The notes beneath the pieces were generated by a model. That model was not told the origin of the DNA and did not search any database. It worked only from the letters and a program-made list of their open reading frames with translations. The translations under genes and the position numbers were made by a program. From positions 1 through 25,076 of the IMG/VR virus record IMGVR_UViG_3300037843_000128: a DNA stretch of 25,076 bases. One strand, given 5' to 3'. This document shows positions 7,972 through 24,386 of this stretch, in pieces. Each line of letters begins with the position of its first letter. The first letter of the stretch is position 1. The DNA is from a virus.

Positions 7972-8760
7972 TCACTGTGCATTGTTCACGGTGAAAACGA
8001 TCACCACTTCGTACCAAGTCTGCGCTGCATCAGCCGTCGCTGCGGAGATGTAAAGCTGGTCGCCCGCCGCGATGGTCGTATCCGACAGCGTGACGGTTGA
8101 ACTGCTGGTCGCACCATTATAGAAAATGCAGGTTTGCGAAATCTGCGTCGTGGCGCAGGCCCGTCCTGAAGCTGTAGCCAAAGCCGCCGAGAGGATGCTG
8201 GTAACGCCCTGTACGCCTACCTTGCCGATCTGGACGGAGCTTGTGCCAGTGAAAGTTGGGGCTGTGGCTGATCCGGTCAGGGTCTGCGTGCCGCCCGAGA
8301 CATCTACCTCTACTATGGTCGCATTATAGGGGACCACGCACTTGCCGGAGAACTGCGCGGCGGTCAAGGCCGTAGCCGATTGCGTGTCGTTGTCAATGAC
8401 GCAGGTGCGGCGGACGTTGCTGACCGTGTGCGCGGCAAATAAAGGATTGTTCGTCGTCACCTGGATGGTGGTTGGATTAAAGACTCCCAACGAGGCTAGT
8501 TGAATTCCGTGAGTTACACCGCTGATTACAGGAGGATATTGTGCATAGATATTGTATCCGAGGGGTGTGCAAGCACTTGTCGAAGTACAGTTCACCACGT
8601 AGTAATTGACCGTAGGGTTGCCGAGCACGTTGCTGACGGCAGCTTTCGCCGTGGCTGCTGCGGTTCCGCCATTTGCGATAGGCAGGGTTTCTCCCCAGGC
8701 CATGCTCGCCGCCAGGAGCAGGAGAACTAAATCTCGAACGAAGATCCCAAAACGCGCCAT
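7972..8760 (-). CDS. Secreted tail-fibre-motif protein
   Basis: A 262-residue protein. ATG 8760 opens MARFGIFVRDLVLLLLAASM followed by AWG, a typical Sec signal peptide, and the frame upstream to 8811 is rejected for that reason. The Shine-Dalgarno is weak, and the start lies inside the end of the collagen-like gene (34-nt overlap). Directly after the predicted cleavage site comes ETLPIANGGTAAATAKAAVS, which matches the LPxANGGTGxxTAxxAxxNLG motif of many phage tail fibres. The C-terminal half is beta-rich and ends WYEVVIVFTVNNAQ. A fibre motif behind an export signal is unusual for a phage. Confidence 0.75.
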   Translation of the reverse strand: MARFGIFVRDLVLLLLAASMAWGETLPIANGGTAAATAKAAVSNVLGNPTVNYYVVNCTSTSACTPLGYNIYAQYPPVISGVTHGIQLASLGVFNPTTIQVTTNNPLFAAHTVSNVRRTCVIDNDTQSATALTAAQFSGKCVVPYNATIVEVDVSGGTQTLTGSATAPTFTGTSSVQIGKVGVQGVTSILSAALATASGRACATTQISQTCIFYNGATSSSTVTLSDTTIAAGDQLYISAATADAAQTWYEVVIVFTVNNAQ

Positions 8761-10985
8761 AGCGCACCATCCCAGTAAAACATGGACGCTTGCCATTGCG
8801 TCAGCGTCCACGTACTTTCATTGTCGATATTGCCGCTTGCTGCGGTGACTCCACAGGTTCCCGCGCCTACGCTCTTGACCCAAAGATAGAAGGCTGTTGC
8901 GAACGAAGTTGGAAGAGTGACGGTCTGCGCGGAAGAAAAGTTCGCCTGAATAACTTTTCCCAAGTCTCCAGTAGCCGCCGTGTAGCTCGCTGACTGCGCG
9001 TTGATTCCTAGAAGGAAGGCGTTGCCTGTCGTCCCTTGGACTCCTTGAGTTCCTTGGACTCCCTGTATCCCCTGAGTGCCAGTAGTCCCTTGAGAGCCGG
9101 TTGTCCCAGTCGTCCCCTGTGCACCCGTAGTACCGGTCGTGCCTTGGGAACCAGTCGTACCGGTGGTGCCCTGCGCCCCAGTTGTTCCTGTGGTTCCCTG
9201 ACTGCCGGTTGTACCCGTAGTACCTTGAGAACCAGTTGTTCCTTGCGATCCTGTCGTCCCGGTGGTTCCTTGGGAGCCTGTAGTTCCCGTCGTCCCCTGA
9301 GAACCTGTCGTCCCTTGCGTGCCACTACCTGTTGTTCCTTGATTTCCTTGAATACCTTGAGTACCTTGGATACCTGTCGTCCCCTGCACGCCCTGCGTGC
9401 CTTGGGTACCGCTTCCCGTAGTCCCCTGCGTTCCTGTCGATCCCTGAGTGCCGGTGGTCCCTTGCGTACCAGTTAATCCTTGGGTGCCCGTAGTACCCTG
9501 AGAGCCACTGCCAGTAGTTCCCTGAGAACCCGTTGTGCCCTGACTGCCTGTGGTTCCGGTTGTTCCTTGAGAGCCGGTAGTGCCAGTTGTCCCCTGAGTG
9601 CCTGTTGTCCCTTGGCTACCAGTTGTCCCTGTCGTTCCTTGCGTACCAGTCGTCCCCTGAGGTCCGGTAGCTCCAGCACCTAACTGAAAAATGCTGAAAT
9701 TGGCATCCTCGACCGTGATTACTTCCCCGCCAGCGTCGGTTTGCTCTACCTGCATCAGAATTACGTCGCCGGAGTTCAAACTATCTATCCCGGTTATGGC
9801 TACGGTCACAATATCCGTCGAGGCAGGTTTTACGACGCAGATGTGATCGGGGATGGCGATGTTGTTTTTGAACATCTGAAAAGCGAATGTGTGATTGCTG
9901 CCGCTTGGATAAACTGTGGCAGTGAACATCGTCCCGAAATCGGCTGTCGTGTTCGATGTGATGGTTCCGTTGCCTAAGTTATAAGTGGTTCCTACCGGAG
10001 ACAGATCGTCGGTGTAGTTGGTATTGATCGGGTAAAACTGATTGGCGTTGGTTAGGGTTATACCGGTTGCATTGTTGTTGATGGTGATTTCGCCGAACGC
10101 GCCGCTGCCGGTCGGACCTTGAACGCCTTGGATTCCCTGCGTTCCCTGACTGCCCTGAATCCCTTGAATCCCCTGTGTGCCCTGAGAGCCGGTTGTGCCT
10201 GTGGTGCCTTGCGAACCCGTGGTCCCGGTAGTTCCCTGCGCTCCCGTCGTGCCGGTAGTACCTTGAGCGCCTGTCGTCCCTGTGGTGCCTTGTGCTCCGG
10301 TTGTCCCAGTGGTGCCCTGCATCCCGGTTGTTCCTTGAACTCCCTGAATGCCTTGAATTCCCTGCGGTCCTTGGATGCCAGTTGTTCCCTGAGTACCTTG
10401 AGTTCCGCTTCCGGTCGTACCCTGAGTGCCTTGCGTACCTTGGGTTCCCGTTCCTGTTGTGCCTTGGTTTCCCTGAATCCCCTGCACGCCTTGAACACCT
10501 TGGGTTCCCTGAGTACCGCTGCCGGTTGCCCCTTGAGAGCCGGTAGTTCCCTGCGCTCCATCTGCCCCGGTTGTTCCTTGAGTTCCAGTGATCCCCTGCA
10601 CGCCTTGAGAACCAGTAGTTCCCTGAGAACCCGTGGTCCCGGTAGTTCCCTGTGATCCTGTTGTTCCCTGCGAACCAGTAACGCCGGTTGTTCCCTGAGT
10701 CCCTGTTGTTCCTTGCGGTCCCGTGGAACCCGTCGTGCCCTGTGACCCGCTGCCTGTCGTGCCTTGGGTTCCGGTGCTGCCCTGCACGCCTTGGGTTCCG
10801 GTGGTCCCCTGCATCCCGGCTCCGGTTGTGCCTTGCGTGCCGGTAGACCCCTGAATCCCTGTTGACCCCTGGGAGCCAGTCGTGCCTTGCATACCAACGC
10901 CAGTAGTACCCTGAAGCCCCTGTACGCCCGTCGCGCCTTGCGGCCCTACGGCGGAACTTGGACCGGGATAGGGATCAACGGACAT
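8727..10985 (-). CDS. Collagen-like phage tail fibre protein
   Basis: A 752-residue protein with a good ribosome site (AGGAGA before ATG 10985). The order of parts is: a short head (1-13); a collagen-like Gly-X-Y region rich in GTT/GTQ/GSQ triplets (about 14-292); a globular beta domain (about 293-437, GEITINNNATGITLTNANQF onwards); a second collagen-like region (about 438-653); and a C-terminal fibre domain (654-752) with SASYTAATGDLGKVIQANFS and an end typical of tail-fibre tips. Collagen-like trimeric rods are known in phage fibres. The triplet register is broken nine times by GxGxQ units. Synonymous codons are well scrambled, so the DNA has few long exact repeats. Receptor binding is inferred from family. 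Confidence 0.9.
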   Translation of the reverse strand: MSVDPYPGPSSAVGPQGATGVQGLQGTTGVGMQGTTGSQGSTGIQGSTGTQGTTGAGMQGTTGTQGVQGSTGTQGTTGSGSQGTTGSTGPQGTTGTQGTTGVTGSQGTTGSQGTTGTTGSQGTTGSQGVQGITGTQGTTGADGAQGTTGSQGATGSGTQGTQGVQGVQGIQGNQGTTGTGTQGTQGTQGTTGSGTQGTQGTTGIQGPQGIQGIQGVQGTTGMQGTTGTTGAQGTTGTTGAQGTTGTTGAQGTTGTTGSQGTTGTTGSQGTQGIQGIQGSQGTQGIQGVQGPTGSGAFGEITINNNATGITLTNANQFYPINTNYTDDLSPVGTTYNLGNGTITSNTTADFGTMFTATVYPSGSNHTFAFQMFKNNIAIPDHICVVKPASTDIVTVAITGIDSLNSGDVILMQVEQTDAGGEVITVEDANFSIFQLGAGATGPQGTTGTQGTTGTTGSQGTTGTQGTTGTTGSQGTTGTTGSQGTTGSQGTTGSGSQGTTGTQGLTGTQGTTGTQGSTGTQGTTGSGTQGTQGVQGTTGIQGTQGIQGNQGTTGSGTQGTTGSQGTTGTTGSQGTTGTTGSQGTTGSQGTTGTTGSQGTTGTTGAQGTTGTTGSQGTTGTTGAQGTTGTTGSQGTTGTQGIQGVQGTQGVQGTTGNAFLLGINAQSASYTAATGDLGKVIQANFSSAQTVTLPTSFATAFYLWVKSVGAGTCGVTAASGNIDNESTWTLTQWQASMFYWDGALWRVLGSSFEI
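9028..9675. repeat. Collagen triplet repeat region 2
   Basis: This region codes the second Gly-X-Y block of the fibre protein (residues about 438-653). At DNA level it is a degenerate 9-base periodicity with all four Gly codons and both Gln codons mixed. Confidence 0.85.
10107..10945. repeat. Collagen triplet repeat region 1
   Basis: This region codes the first Gly-X-Y block of the fibre protein (residues about 14-292). It has the same degenerate 9-base periodicity as region 2 and is separated from it by the globular domain. Confidence 0.85.
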
Positions 10986-16076: not shown

Positions 16077-16087
16077 TGCGATATAAT
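16077..16087 (+). promoter_or_regulatory. Promoter of HNH gene 1
   Basis: A perfect -10 box TATAAT (16082-16087) lies 58 bases before the ATG. The -35 region is poor. A transcript from it should begin near 16093-16095, within the 5' arm of the leader stem. Confidence 0.55.
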
Positions 16088-16088
16088 G

Positions 16089-16154
16089 GAGGCGTCAGGA
16101 GCGACGAACTCCCGGCTCTCACCCTACCGTTCTGGAGGAACGATATGACGCCTC
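16089..16154 (+). promoter_or_regulatory. Leader stem sequestering the HNH1 start codon
   Basis: GAGGCGTC (16089-16096) is exactly complementary to GACGCCTC (16147-16154), which begins with the G of the ATG and covers codons 2-3 and the first base of codon 4. A small inner hairpin follows the 5' arm (GGAG 16098-16101 with CTCC 16109-16112). The Shine-Dalgarno GGAGGAACG lies inside the enclosed loop. The same layout, with compensatory base changes, is present at 18571-18634. Confidence 0.65.
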
Positions 16155-17038
16155 GCAAACTGATTCTACCACCATTTGACGGATGCATCTGCGGCGATCC
16201 TAACTGCCAAATTCCTCATGGGTTGTGCCATTGTGGGTGCGGCGGCAAGACGACAATCCCCGATGAAAGCGATGCATCGAAAAGAGCGATCAGAGGCGTG
16301 CCTCGCAAGTATATACACGGCCATAATTCCTTCAGAGAGGCTAAACTGCCAGATAATTTATGTGTCTGCCGTAACCACGACTGCGAGATTCCCTTCGGCT
16401 ACTGCCATTGCGGGTGTGGAGAAAGAACAAGGATTGCGCCTACAAATAACACCGAGCATGGGTGGGTGAGAGGGTACCCGATTCTCTTTATAAACGGCCA
16501 CTGCCTAGCCGACAGGGTGGACTTGTCAAAATGCGAATGTCCAGAGGGGGCTAGGCTTGTCGCCCTCACATTCGGCAAAGTGGCCATTGTTGACGATGGC
16601 AAATACGAATCAATCAATTCACACAAGTGGCACACTATCGGAAATCGCAAAAGGAAGACTCCAAATATCTATGCTGGGCGAACAGAGGTCATAAACGGAA
16701 ATCTGGTTACAATCCTCATGCACAACGAGATTTTTGGTCTTGAGTACGGCGACGATAGAAAGGTAGATCACGTAAACCGGAATGGATTAGATAATCTTCT
16801 TGCAAACCTCAGACTCGCAGATTGTTCTCAGAATGCGTGGAATCAGGGCCGTAACAGCATAAATACCAGCGGTTTTAAGGGCGTCTCGTGGGATAAGAAA
16901 GAGCACAAATGGAAAGCCAGAATAGCCGCTAGGGGGCGTAGATATTTTTTAGGGTACTTCGATAGTAAAGAAGCAGCATACGCGGCCTATTGCGAAAAAG
17001 CTAAGGAATTGCATGGCGAATTCGCAAATTTAGGCTAA
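16145..17038 (+). CDS. HNH-AP2 homing-type endonuclease, two Cys modules
   Basis: A 297-residue protein read against the structural operon. ATG 16145 has a strong Shine-Dalgarno (GGAGGAACGAT); the frame upstream to 16043 is only the leader. Two Cys-rich modules come first (residues 14-61 and 73-119), each C-x-C-x4-C-x-I-P-x-G-x-C-H-C-G-C-G-x2-T, ending G-x-P-x2-[YF]-I-x-G-H, probably zinc-binding. Then comes an HNH_3-type nuclease core (His193, Asp208-His209, Asn217, Asn221) and an AP2-like DNA-binding domain (about 241-290, SGFKGVSWDKKEHKWKARI). Such genes cut DNA to spread themselves. Its stop is 2 nt from the convergent stop of the adaptor gene. No intron or split host gene is evident, so it would be a free-standing homing endonuclease. 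Confidence 0.9.
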   Translation: MTPRKLILPPFDGCICGDPNCQIPHGLCHCGCGGKTTIPDESDASKRAIRGVPRKYIHGHNSFREAKLPDNLCVCRNHDCEIPFGYCHCGCGERTRIAPTNNTEHGWVRGYPILFINGHCLADRVDLSKCECPEGARLVALTFGKVAIVDDGKYESINSHKWHTIGNRKRKTPNIYAGRTEVINGNLVTILMHNEIFGLEYGDDRKVDHVNRNGLDNLLANLRLADCSQNAWNQGRNSINTSGFKGVSWDKKEHKWKARIAARGRRYFLGYFDSKEAAYAAYCEKAKELHGEFANLG

Positions 17039-17054
17039 GCCTATTTAGGCTTCG
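17038..17054. repeat. Direct repeat right of HNH cassette 1
   Basis: The right-hand partner of 16022-16042. It starts at the last base of the endonuclease stop codon and runs into the end of the adaptor-like gene. Together with the preceding bases it also forms a small palindrome (TAGGC-TAA-GCCTA, 17031-17043). Confidence 0.5.
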
Positions 17055-18546
17055 TGTTGTAGCGGTTTTGCGCTCGTTCCTGTGCTTGGCCGCGTTGCAT
17101 GAGGATGTCGCTAAAAGCTCCCGTAGAACGTAGCATTGTGTTCTTGGCTGAACAAAACTGGATTGCCTCAGCCTCCAGCGCAAGAGCTTCTTTGAACGAA
17201 CTGCCACCACGCTTGAAGAGCGCCCTAGTCTGGGCCAAATTATACATCGTATCAGCATCGCTGGGAGCGATCTGGAGATAGGTGCCGGATGGGTCGGTTA
17301 TGGGAGCGTTACCTAAAACGGTCACCCCCACATTTGAATTTGTTGGCGCAGCCAAAAAATCTATGCCGCCAGTAACGATGACAGGACCAAATCCAGATGG
17401 ATCGGAATCCCAATTGACCGAATAATTATCCATATCCCTAAGCGAGTCGCAGCTAACCGCAACGCCATTGACTTTCCCAAGCATAATCCAAGGAGTTTTG
17501 AGCATCAATTGTAATCCGTCTTGGTAACGACGCATACAATATTCCGCGCGTTCACGATCTGTTGCTTCTGGTTCCCTGCTAAGCAAGTCAGCCAATGCGC
17601 CATATTCGAGCACGAAAACTAGATCGTCTGGGATGCCAAGGAGCGTCGGCGTTGGGGGGGTAAATGGAGCACCTGAGTTGAGCACGACCGCCTCATAGTT
17701 TCCTGGTTGCGTCGGTGGAATATCGACGATCCAAGAAAGTGGTGGCTCCGAGGACAAGCTGAATGTCTGCGGCGTTCCAGAAGGTTGTTGGTAAAGCGGA
17801 GCCTCGTAGAATTCCTGCGCTATTGTGTCGTCTCGGTAGAGTGTATTGGCAGTAAAGAACTGGAGTGTTCCAGAAACAACGCCTGTTGTCGGCTGCGAGA
17901 TTTGAATTGATCCTGATCCTACTCCGCTCACCGTCGTGGGGTAGGCAATTCCTGTTCCCGTCACCAGTTGCCCATTGGCGATTCCGGTAGTAGACGAAAC
18001 GGTGATCGTGCTTGCTCCTGAAGATGCCGCGCCGGATGTGCTGAATTGCAGGGGCAAATATCGAACGCGAGCCACGTCGATGTTTGAACTTGGAAGCTGC
18101 GTGGTGATCGTGTTAGGCGTGAGCGGAATAAATGTCGATAGGCTCTGATTGCAGTTCGATACTTGAATCATTTCGTCCCTGCGCCGCTGGAGAGCCTGCG
18201 ACAGATCGGAGATTGAAAACTGGATGGTGCCGGTCCAAGTGCTTGTCAGATTGCTCGGCTCAAGCAACATATATTCAAGATCAGCGTAAGCCTGCTGATC
18301 GGTGATTGTCCGGAGCCTTGGACTGTCAGTCAGGGCACCAAGAGAGTTCCACAGACTTGTGCTGTTGTATGAAAATTCAACTTTCCAGAAATTAGTCAAT
18401 ACGTTATACATCTGAAGGCTGCGAACAAGATAAGAAAAAAGCTCGTCTGAGGTCCAAAAGGAAGTTGTCGATGGGGTAATGTACAGGCGTTGGCCTAGCT
18501 CTGAAATGGCATCGGAAACCGTTAACCAAGTGAATACGCCCGCCAT
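17041..18546 (-). CDS. Adaptor/connector-like phage structural protein
   Basis: A 501-residue protein. ATG 18546 (MAGVFTWLTVSDAISELGQR) follows GAGGGG and is taken over the longer frame to 18600, which runs into the divergent leader of the second endonuclease gene. The N-terminus, with LYITPSTTSFWTSDELFSYL and helices after it, resembles head-tail adaptor proteins of podoviruses such as the SU10-type. Residues about 170-235 look like an inserted beta-repeat domain (STITVSSTTGIANGQLVTGT). The C-terminal part is helical (EYGALADLLSREPEATDRER). It sits upstream of the nozzle-like protein, the expected order for adaptor then nozzle. The family match is by eye. Confidence 0.75.
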   Translation of the reverse strand: MAGVFTWLTVSDAISELGQRLYITPSTTSFWTSDELFSYLVRSLQMYNVLTNFWKVEFSYNSTSLWNSLGALTDSPRLRTITDQQAYADLEYMLLEPSNLTSTWTGTIQFSISDLSQALQRRRDEMIQVSNCNQSLSTFIPLTPNTITTQLPSSNIDVARVRYLPLQFSTSGAASSGASTITVSSTTGIANGQLVTGTGIAYPTTVSGVGSGSIQISQPTTGVVSGTLQFFTANTLYRDDTIAQEFYEAPLYQQPSGTPQTFSLSSEPPLSWIVDIPPTQPGNYEAVVLNSGAPFTPPTPTLLGIPDDLVFVLEYGALADLLSREPEATDRERAEYCMRRYQDGLQLMLKTPWIMLGKVNGVAVSCDSLRDMDNYSVNWDSDPSGFGPVIVTGGIDFLAAPTNSNVGVTVLGNAPITDPSGTYLQIAPSDADTMYNLAQTRALFKRGGSSFKEALALEAEAIQFCSAKNTMLRSTGAFSDILMQRGQAQERAQNRYNTKPK

Positions 18547-18560
18547 TTTCCCCTCACTTA

Positions 18561-18569
18561 TGCTAAAAT
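18561..18569 (+). promoter_or_regulatory. Promoter of HNH gene 2, extended -10
   Basis: TGCTAAAAT (18561-18569) is an extended -10 box (TG-N-TAAAAT) 56 bases before the GTG start. There is no clear -35. The start of transcription would fall near 18575-18577, inside the 5' arm of the leader stem, as in cassette 1. Confidence 0.5.
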
Positions 18570-18635
18570 GGGGGTGTCGGGTGGTTGAACACCCGGCCAA
18601 AGCCTACTCGCCCAAGGAGCGATTGTGACACCCTC
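18570..18635 (+). promoter_or_regulatory. Leader stem sequestering the HNH2 start codon
   Basis: GGGTGTC (18572-18578) is exactly complementary to GACACCC (18627-18633), which begins with the G of the GTG. One wobble and one more G-C pair extend the stem to 18570/18635. The inner hairpin is GGGTG (18579-18583) with CACCC (18590-18594), with loop GTTGAA. The layout equals that at 16089-16154, with three compensated pairs. Confidence 0.65.
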
Positions 18636-19353
18636 CCAACCGATTCTACCACTTCCAGCGCTGTGCATTTGCGGAAATTTTGATTGCCCGATTCCCTTCG
18701 GATATTGTCACTGTGGATGCGGTCAAAAAACAAATTTGGCCACACGAACATCCTTTTCTGAATACCGCGTTTGCTATATGCCTGTGCGATTTTGTCATGG
18801 GCATCAGGGAAGGATACGCCCGTTTATCGAGGATGCAAAACCCTTCAAACTCGATGGCGTTTATTGCCGCCTCATCCCACTCACGCAAGGTCAGCACACC
18901 ATCGTTTGGGAATCCGACTATTGCTGGCTGATGCAGTGGAAATGGTACGCGCGGCTGAATCCCGGCATGGGAGCCTATTATGCATCCCGCAAGGAAATTA
19001 TCAAGGGGCGTATGGAGACAATTCAAATGCACCGACAAATCCTTGGTTTGGAGGTCGGTGATCTAAGAATAGGCGATCACATTCAATCAGGGGAGACCCT
19101 CTTGAACACAAGGAGTAATTTACGCATCGCAACATTTGCAGAAAACGGCAGGAATCATAGAATGAGAGTGGATAACACTTCTGGATTTATCGGTGTGCGG
19201 ATTCACAAGCGGAGCGGCCTATATGTAGCCTTCATCACCGTGAATAATATACTTACCTACCTTGGCTACCGAAAGACGGCGGAGGCTGCATGGCGCGAAC
19301 TTTACGTGCCAGCGGCACTCAAGTATCACGGCGAATTTGCGAGGATAGCATGA
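18625..19353 (+). CDS. HNH-AP2 homing-type endonuclease, one Cys module
   Basis: A 242-residue relative of the first endonuclease. GTG 18625 follows AAGGAG. One Cys-rich module (residues 14-60: Cys14, 16, 21, 28, 30, 32, then PVRFCHGH) is followed by an HNH_3-type core (His136, Asp151-His152, Asn161, Asn165) and an AP2-like end (about 185-238) that is less typical than in the first gene (the AAYAAY segment is replaced by AAWRELYVPA). Both proteins begin MTP and share an ILPxx segment. Its stop is 5 nt from the convergent stop of the 97-aa gene, so it too was inserted between operon genes without breaking one. Activity is likely but not certain. Confidence 0.88.
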   Translation: MTPSQPILPLPALCICGNFDCPIPFGYCHCGCGQKTNLATRTSFSEYRVCYMPVRFCHGHQGRIRPFIEDAKPFKLDGVYCRLIPLTQGQHTIVWESDYCWLMQWKWYARLNPGMGAYYASRKEIIKGRMETIQMHRQILGLEVGDLRIGDHIQSGETLLNTRSNLRIATFAENGRNHRMRVDNTSGFIGVRIHKRSGLYVAFITVNNILTYLGYRKTAEAAWRELYVPAALKYHGEFARIA

Positions 19354-23121: not shown

Positions 23122-24201
23122 CTACTCCCTTGCAGCGGCAAACAGCGCCGCGAGCTTGCTGCCTACCGGTGCGCCCAAGCCCGTGCATGGGCTAGGCTGA
23201 GGACCGGCGTTGTAGGCTCCGTTGCCGCCGCTGGTAATGAGGGTAAACGCTGCCGGATTCTTCCACAGTGTCGCCAGCACATCGACCAGCTTGTTTCCAC
23301 ACGCGGCGAAAAGTCCTGCGTACAGCGGAGTGACCGCGCTTGTCCCGCCTACGATTTGCTGCGACATGCCTTGGAAGATGATGTAGCCAGTGTTGGGATC
23401 AGCGTCCGCAGCAACATCAGGGACCATACGCCCGAGGCCCACAGGAGCGTTCGGAATGTTGATCTGCCATGCTTGTACGGGAAATACCGTTGAGTATCCT
23501 CCGCCAGTTCCCTCACCGTCCGTTTGGTTCGGATTGTCATTCCACACCACCTCGCTTGTTGCCGTCTTGTTCGTCCCGCCGCAGCCCACGATGCTCGGGC
23601 ACGACGCCGGACAGTCCACGTTGGCCGCACTCTCCCCGCCGTCCGAAGAATCGTTGTCACCCGCAGCGGCGAAGATCGTCATGCCCAACTTCGTCGCCGC
23701 CAGCGCCGCCGCTTCCATCTGCTCGCACGCCTCTGAGCCCCACTCGGCCTCGTCAGCGCCCCACGAGATCGAGCACACGTCGCAGCCGTCTGCTGCCGCA
23801 TTGGTTACAGCCGAGGCGATGTCCTGCGACCAGTACATGCGGATCTGGGCGATCTGGCCGGTAGCGACGTAGAAGGCCGCGCCTGCCACTTCGATGTCCA
23901 AGGCCACTTCCATGTCGGCGTCCTGGCCGGGCGAGTTCGTTGTTCCGTCTACCGAAACGTCGGTGATGTTAGGCGAAGGTTGCCCGATGGATTTGAAATA
24001 GCCGTCCACATCCTCCTGCACCCACCCGCCGCCGAGTTCGATGATGGCGATCTTGGTCCCGCCCGGCTTGCCGGTGGGCCAGTCGTAGGCTTTGCAGAGG
24101 TCGGGGACTTGCCACGCGCCCGAAGAGGTTGGAGCGCCAGAAGCGAGATGTTTGAAATAAGGGCGGCAGTTGAATCGCGGGTATAACGGTTTCAGGTTCA
24201 T
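23122..24201 (-). CDS. S53 (sedolisin) serine-carboxyl peptidase
   Basis: A 359-residue peptidase. ATG 24201 (MNLKPLYPRFNCRPYFKHLA) overlaps the stop of the previous gene (ATGA) with GAGGAAAG upstream; the frame beyond is rejected. The sedolisin residues are all visible: Glu98 and Asp102 in MEVALDIEV, Asp182 (AAAGDNDSSDGG) as oxyanion-hole Asp, and Ser288 in GGTSAVTPLYAG. The spacings are close to those of kumamolisin (E78, D82, D164, S278). The length equals a mature catalytic domain: there is no pro-region and no signal peptide. The usual C-terminal calcium ligands seem lost (see findings). The substrate is unknown, and a role in virion maturation or lysis is only a guess. Confidence 0.9.
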   Translation of the reverse strand: MNLKPLYPRFNCRPYFKHLASGAPTSSGAWQVPDLCKAYDWPTGKPGGTKIAIIELGGGWVQEDVDGYFKSIGQPSPNITDVSVDGTTNSPGQDADMEVALDIEVAGAAFYVATGQIAQIRMYWSQDIASAVTNAAADGCDVCSISWGADEAEWGSEACEQMEAAALAATKLGMTIFAAAGDNDSSDGGESAANVDCPASCPSIVGCGGTNKTATSEVVWNDNPNQTDGEGTGGGYSTVFPVQAWQINIPNAPVGLGRMVPDVAADADPNTGYIIFQGMSQQIVGGTSAVTPLYAGLFAACGNKLVDVLATLWKNPAAFTLITSGGNGAYNAGPQPSPCTGLGAPVGSKLAALFAAARE

Positions 24202-24386
24202 TCGCTTTCCTCTTCCTCTGCTTCTTCGTCCTCTTCCCAACATACGCAGTCACAGCCTTCAATGTTGCACTTCGATGAACCCGGATATTTGGGATCGCCG
24301 CCATGTTCTTCTTCGTCGTGCCCACAAGTGCAGGTTGCCATTCGCTCACCTTCCTTGCTAACCCTATTTCTCTGTGCTTCAGTCAT
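24198..24386 (-). CDS. Cys-rich acidic-tailed mini-protein, 62 aa
   Basis: A 62-residue ORF from ATG 24386, which overlaps the stop of the 28-aa ORF (ATGA). An internal ATG at 24341 (47 residues, AAGG upstream) is a possible alternative start. The core MATCTCGHDEEEHGGDPKYP followed by SKCNIEGCDCVCW has CxCGH and C-x5-C-x-C-x-C patterns of a small zinc-type module common in phage and actinobacterial mini-proteins. The tail is very acidic (EEDEEAEEEESE). Its stop overlaps the peptidase start. The function is unknown. Confidence 0.65.
   Translation of the reverse strand: MTEAQRNRVSKEGERMATCTCGHDEEEHGGDPKYPGSSKCNIEGCDCVCWEEDEEAEEEESE

Follow-up and report, generated by a model that had tools for sequence, protein, structure and literature searches.

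A structured leader with a predicted nested promoter is shared by unrelated nuclease genes of uncultivated phages

The stretch of DNA analysed here (the window; 25,076 nucleotides) is the entire IMG/VR virus record IMGVR_UViG_3300037843_000128. Each of its two HNH nuclease genes is preceded by a leader of about 65 bases, in which a predicted promoter is followed by an RNA fold. Counting the window's two, 47 IMG/VR contigs carry 53 non-identical leaders built in this way, and the leader is common to unrelated kinds of nuclease. We consider it probable that it acts as a portable promoter-RNA module, in which RNA started at the leader's own promoter would be translated and RNA reading through from elsewhere would be locked.

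The two nuclease genes and their leaders

The cassette A gene (16145..17038, + strand) encodes an HNH-AP2 endonuclease of 297 aa with two N-terminal Cys modules and lies antisense to the adjacent virion genes. Its matches to AP2 (E 5.6e-7) and HNH_3 (E 0.0056) were both below the Pfam cut-off, and it matched the phrog_99 HNH endonucleases with an E-value of 3e-41. The cassette B gene (18625..19353, + strand) encodes an HNH-AP2-like endonuclease of 242 aa with one Cys module. A Pfam search of this protein gave no match, and its phrog_99 match had an E-value of 2.8e-21; over residues 12-241 it shares 39% identity with protein A. Both proteins therefore belong with the phrog_99 profile (HNH-AP2 homing endonucleases), in a match that covers neither the Cys modules at their N-termini nor the structured leader. 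A protein search in the phage collection returned HNH relatives at most about 41% identical, over part of the length. Like cassette A, cassette B is antisense to its neighbouring genes. Elsewhere in the window, positions 8727-10985 (-) encode a 752-aa protein, probably a tail fibre, that consists mostly of collagen-like repeats (GTTG/GxQG), and positions 23122-24243 (-) encode a subtilase-like peptidase (Peptidase_S8, E 7.9e-10).

In cassette A, the -10 box TATAAT (16082-16087, + strand, as are all leader elements given here) ends 1 nt 5' of the P1 arm. As judged from sequence and fold, this 5' arm, GAGGCGTCA (16089-16097), doubles as the promoter discriminator. The predicted +1 is the G at 16094, the seventh base after the -10 box, by a rule applied to all leaders. 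The inner hairpin P2 (GGAG-CGACGAA-CTCC, 16098-16112) comes next, and then the hairpin P3 (CGTTC-TGGAG-GAACG, 16128-16142), which holds the Shine-Dalgarno (SD) sequence GGAGG at 16134-16138. The P1 3' arm, TGACGCCTC (16146-16154), spans the start codon and codons 2-4. The pairing of GAGGCGTC (16089-16096) with GACGCCTC (16147-16154), extended by A16097-T16146, gives nine Watson-Crick pairs.

Cassette B has the -10 box TAAAAT at 18564-18569 with an extended -10 TGC at 18561-18563, followed by the P1 5' arm GGGGGTGTCG at 18570-18579. Its predicted +1, the G at 18576, would be the first base of an extended P2 (GTCGGGTG/CACCCGGC), of which the inner hairpin GGGTG-GTTGAA-CACCC occupies 18579-18594. 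P3 (TCGC-CCAAGGA-GCGA, 18608-18622) contains the SD sequence AAGGAG at 18614-18619, and the P1 3' arm TGACACCCTC (18626-18635) spans the GTG start and codons 2-4. The core of P1 pairs GGGGTGTC (18571-18578) with GACACCCT (18627-18634) through seven Watson-Crick pairs and G-U 18571/18634; at its full extent, P1 joins 18570-18579 to 18626-18635 in ten pairs, including two G-U pairs.

The original prediction had described P1 and the inner hairpin in both cassettes, and on re-checking the sequence we found its arm positions and pairings correct and the inner hairpin present in both. Its compensatory differences were also right: C-G 16093/16150 corresponds to T-A 18575/18630, A-T 16090/16153 to G-C 18572/18633 and, in the inner hairpin, A-T 16100/16110 to T-A 18582/18591. 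On the coding side, ACG/ACA and CCT/CCC are synonymous changes, as it had claimed. The two helices that it described thus exist, but there are three in all, and the third, P3, which holds the SD sequence, had been overlooked.

When the run length of P1 was compared with that of shuffled leader bases, the probability was 0.0002 for cassette A (Watson-Crick pairs only) and 0.015 for cassette B (with G-U pairs). The fold z-scores were -2.0 and -2.3, respectively. Taken alone, the window's two leaders make a modest structural case, suggestive and short of decisive.

A leader family in IMG/VR contigs

Leaders were collected with patterns of the P1 arms only, with patterns of the P2-P3 region that fixed neither P1, the -10 box nor the protein, and from loci found by protein. 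A Cys-module pattern in viral contigs led to relatives with the same leader (L153, L154, L156 and L172, the last with two copies), and several contigs carry two or three leaders, like the window. The set excludes repeat arrays and was curated partly by P2/P3 and the N-terminus, so the P2/P3 frequencies given below are inflated; the compensatory changes, the swap test and the covariance model R2 are less exposed to this bias. Most P1 sequences were gathered with P1-fixing patterns and are not independent evidence for this helix.

R2 was built from nine leaders with the window left out. On the 25-kb record it found exactly the window's two leaders, B at 18570-18636 (E 9e-10) and A at 16088-16156 (E 2e-9). 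It also recovered most held-out leaders, plus L001, which had been obtained by protein similarity alone. Another model, R1, recovered L009 and L002, both obtained by protein similarity. P1 is imperfect in some leaders: L338, L340, L341 and L002 have one mismatch each, L001 has two, and in L150 the arm is wholly absent. In L338, L340 and L002 the mismatch is repeatedly of C with A, in one and the same portion of the helix, and may be tolerated or reflect a recent change.

An Rfam search of the window and 12 loci gave nothing above the gathering cut-off and, where it was run, found no intron. Two distant blastn searches of the phage collection with single leaders gave only short, insignificant matches. 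In a host search, the P1 pattern matched once in 396 genomes (the phylum of an Acidobacteriaceae MAG), a chance-level number. R2, run on 60 of those genomes, gave one match (L348) inside a long bacterial open frame, which we took as false. The matches of the pattern TANAATGGNGGNGTCNGG were mostly chance, and it still yielded L070, L072 and L135. Many P1-pattern matches were GTGTCA/TGACAC repeat arrays or other inverted repeats with neither P2, P3 nor a gene, and these were excluded. The GTGTCA/TGACAC inverted repeats form clusters resembling repeated operator sites in L208, L210, L214, L237, L248, L255, L258 and L278. In seven further loci (L207, L211, L216, L221, L223, L252 and L264), a near-identical 77-nt stretch lies between GGGGTGTC and GACACCCC with no long gene behind it.

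Evidence for selection on the fold

The P1 arms were exchanged among 19 leaders not selected by a fixed P1 pattern, two of which (L009 and L002) had been picked by the structure model. A leader's own arms formed a mean run of 8.3 Watson-Crick pairs, compared with 5.6 for exchanged arms, and 0 of 2000 permutations reached the observed sum. Between +6 and +12 of the coding sequence the types of P1 pair vary, as do the N-termini encoded: pairing is retained over start regions encoding MTP, MPTP, MTTP, MTNP, MTSP and MPH.

Helices were parsed by script, and the formal pair count was made on the better-aligned MPTP set. There, 28 cells showed a double change, against 9.4 in shuffles (0 of 500 reached 28). 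All 28 lie in P2 and P3, P1 being invariant in this set because the search pattern fixed it. Stems of at least 5 were present at P2 in 83% and at P3 in 74% of leaders, compared with 14% and 9% in shuffles. RNAalifold recovered P1, P2 and P3 unaided from the MPTP alignment; in the MTP group it detected only P1, because MAFFT misaligns P2 and P3 there.

As judged from these comparisons, all three helices show compensatory change, indicating an RNA structure conserved by selection, and with the relatives included the leader structure is far beyond chance. The original prediction had proposed selection on an RNA structure over the start region. Complementary arms were sought in homologous leaders and were found, together with compensatory change, and the proposal stands. 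Its further reading, that the structure hides the start, fared less evenly. The structure is indeed kept over the start region, but what P1 chiefly holds is codons 1-4 with the G of the AUG, rather than the entire start codon.

A promoter abutting the 5' arm

The 5' arm also occupies the place of the discriminator, with GGGG following the -10 box, and self-started RNA would lose most of it, a second qualification to the idea of a hidden start. A TATAAT-like -10 hexamer with at least 5 of 6 matches adjoins the arm in 46 of the 53 leaders; seven have no such match. The test used a 9-position window beside the arm, for which the null expectation was 2-3.5% (1.9% at random places in the loci and 3.5% upstream of any GGGG). 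Upstream of the -10 box, G occupies -14 in 32 of the 46 and T occupies -15 in 23, and no conserved -35 was seen among the leaders. Nor did we find a T4-type late promoter (TATAAATA, phage sigma); the leaders carry the TATAAT-like hexamer instead, often with TG before it.

Given that the -10 box abuts the 5' arm, the canonical start falls near the end of the arm. The predicted start, 7 bases after the -10 box, is a G in 38 of the 46 leaders. Counted from there, 4 to 9 arm bases are lost in most leaders, and the maximally extended P2 begins no more than 2 nt from the predicted +1 in 35 of the 46. The original prediction had placed the 5' arm just after the -10 box and missed this consequence, that the canonical +1 falls near the arm's 3' end.

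In GGGA-type discriminator promoters, a G-rich segment right after the -10 box favours RNA polymerase binding. In the present leaders, unlike these, the segment has a second property, complementarity to the start of the coding region. Some Cys-module nuclease genes without the leader (L158, L151 and L173) have, by eye, a -10-like box 5-7 nt before the ATG, which resembles the arrangement of a leaderless mRNA.

Computed opening cost and gene context

We computed the cost of opening positions -15 to +13 in the two predicted RNAs. It was 8.5 kcal/mol for self-started RNA, 13.8 kcal/mol for read-through RNA and 10.3 kcal/mol for read-through RNA with a shuffled arm. In silico, the read-through and self-started RNAs differed by more than 2 kcal/mol in 43 of 47 cases; cassette B showed no difference (8.0 vs 8.0 kcal/mol). 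The predicted openness of the AUG triplet was nearly equal in the two RNAs (0.50 vs 0.48), and the contrast is, in these computations, in the opening cost of the whole initiation region and not in the AUG triplet. The P1-P2-P3 covariation and the higher opening cost together predict an RNA structure over the ribosome-binding site and start in upstream-initiated RNA. P3 persists in the self-started RNA, whose translation it may likewise reduce.

Leaders were found downstream of genes on either strand, many of them behind antisense genes. For 24 leaders, a frame of 90 codons or more on the same strand terminates close by, and in about half of these the stop lies 0-6 nt from the -10 box. Since the upstream stop adjoins the -10 box in such sense cases, an RNA continuing from the upstream gene would carry the arm. 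The source of read-through is less obvious in the window, because the neighbours of both cassettes are antisense; cassette A could feed read-through RNA to cassette B.

Proposed mechanism and alternatives

The reading that we favour begins with a sigma70-like, often extended, -10 box and the G-rich segment that would be both discriminator and P1 5' arm. A transcript from this promoter would start near the end of the arm, which would make P1 impossible. It would open with P2, a hairpin that may shield the 5' end, and continue with P3 and its SD sequence; its start region would be comparatively open, so that translation would be on. An RNA that originated in upstream genes, antisense transcription or an adjacent cassette would contain the whole arm. 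It would fold into the P1-P2-P3 junction over the SD sequence, the start and codons 1-4 and would be translated poorly, an off state. Because the self-started RNA lacks most of the arm, the lock could act only on read-through transcripts. Wherever the gene inserts, the dose and timing of the nuclease would then depend on its own promoter; as this promoter would be read by the host polymerase, expression may be early rather than late. What we observe is the conserved structure with its compensatory changes, the place of the -10 box and the presence of the leader before unrelated nucleases; the +1 position, the on/off behaviour, the protection of the 5' end and the benefit are inferred.

Several other explanations were weighed against this one. 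If transcription began further upstream and the TATAAT were not a real -10 box, the main mRNA would hold the full arm, and the leader could be a thermometer or a riboregulator controlled by a protein or ligand. The complete structure is well conserved and the SD sequence sits in a hairpin of its own, as would suit a signal-responsive switch. We nevertheless regard this as unlikely, given how much more often than the null expectation a TATAAT-like box abuts the arm, the frequent TG before it, the G at the predicted +1 and the lack of an Rfam match for the window and 12 loci. The sense insertions, with about half of their upstream stops so close to the -10 box, would also suit translational coupling, in which the terminating ribosome of the upstream gene opens the arm and the nuclease is co-translated. 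Many leaders, both of the window's included, lie downstream of antisense genes, and a terminating ribosome would cover the arm only briefly; we judge coupling improbable.

A similarly low, if anything slightly lower, probability attaches to the arms acting as DNA, the inverted repeat at the promoter being an operator. The 5' arm overlaps the promoter, and autorepression of this kind is known for I-TevI (PMC2988022). However, the same leader precedes unrelated nuclease families, P2 and P3 show covariation as RNA hairpins, P3 holding the SD sequence, and the sequence of P1 varies while its pairing stays. It is hardly credible that a conserved GGGG discriminator and a conserved Met-Thr-Pro start are complementary by coincidence. 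Many leaders do keep the sequence of both segments, but the swap test, the compensatory pair types that accompany the changing N-termini and the likeness of nonhomologous proteins in their first residues only all speak against chance.

Enzymes behind the leader and known systems

The original prediction had treated the leader as a feature of the Cys-module HNH-AP2 group, a restriction that does not hold, since many unrelated nucleases are also preceded by it. The leader precedes HNH-AP2, EndoVII (PF02945), phrog_1035 EndoVII-like, HNH_2 and HNH_3 proteins, and also GIY-YIG (with a weak NUMOD3 match), T5orf172/MUG113, PDDEXK_5 [PD-(D/E)XK] and DUF559 proteins. The sole clear non-nuclease behind it is a C5 cytosine methyltransferase (L070 1114-1986, - strand). 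Apart from this gene, the family matches of the downstream genes are mostly homing-endonuclease-like.

The P3 region is identical in L307 (HNH-AP2) and L320 (EndoVII). We relied on such single pairs and set aside a count of cross-family neighbours (40 of 53), as the automatic labels left many HNH-AP2 proteins unassigned. Because the closest likeness between leaders can be found between enzyme families, exchange of leaders is plausible. We lean, with some reserve, towards the leader itself being the inherited or exchanged unit. On this reading, HNH/EndoVII, GIY-YIG and PD-(D/E)XK nucleases and a methyltransferase would have acquired a promoter-RNA lock that makes free-standing genes safe to insert in foreign operons and ties their expression to their own promoter. 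If true, a regulatory module defines a class of selfish phage genes irrespective of the enzyme.

In I-TevI, I-TevII, I-TevIII and segB of T4 and mobE of Aeh1, an RNA structure hides the ribosome-binding site in upstream-initiated RNA, and transcripts from the genes' own promoters lack sequence needed for the structure (PMC2988022). The leaders described here resemble these in the endonuclease gene, the hidden ribosome-binding site and the nested promoter, here predicted. Those of T4 and Aeh1 were described singly, with T4-type late (or middle) promoters and the SD sequence in one hairpin, whereas the window-type leader has a sigma70-like -10 box, three helices, a P1 reaching codons 1-4 and many unrelated nucleases behind it. 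The original prediction had cited start-sequestering hairpins in T4-type homing endonucleases. The principle is indeed known, but the precedents extend to free-standing HNH and GIY-YIG genes (mobE and segB). In T4, long transcripts that reach gene e from upstream fold and stay untranslated, and those from a promoter close upstream lack the 5' strand and are translated (PMC3014915). As in our reading, the promoter is nested within an inhibitory RNA, at its arm. Unlike the present genes, both e (lysozyme) and soc (PMC3014915) are phage late genes with T4 late promoters and not nuclease cassettes.

A literature search of open-licence papers found no report of such a leader. The principle was already known from T4-type genes; what is new is the promoter type and the sharing of one leader. 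Uncultivated phages thus add a family of recognisable leaders to a mechanism of a few T-even phage genes, which suggests that regulation, and not the enzyme alone, has been passed around. The covariance model and the -10 rule provide a handle at the DNA level, by which nuclease genes can be found by their switch and transcription starts predicted. How selfish nucleases avoid harming their phage becomes a question directly testable by reporter.

Intact or near-intact leaders also stand before truncated nuclease frames in L220, L259, L302, L331, L327 (217-288, - strand) and L246 (9794-9861, + strand), as though decay of the enzyme preceded that of the leader.
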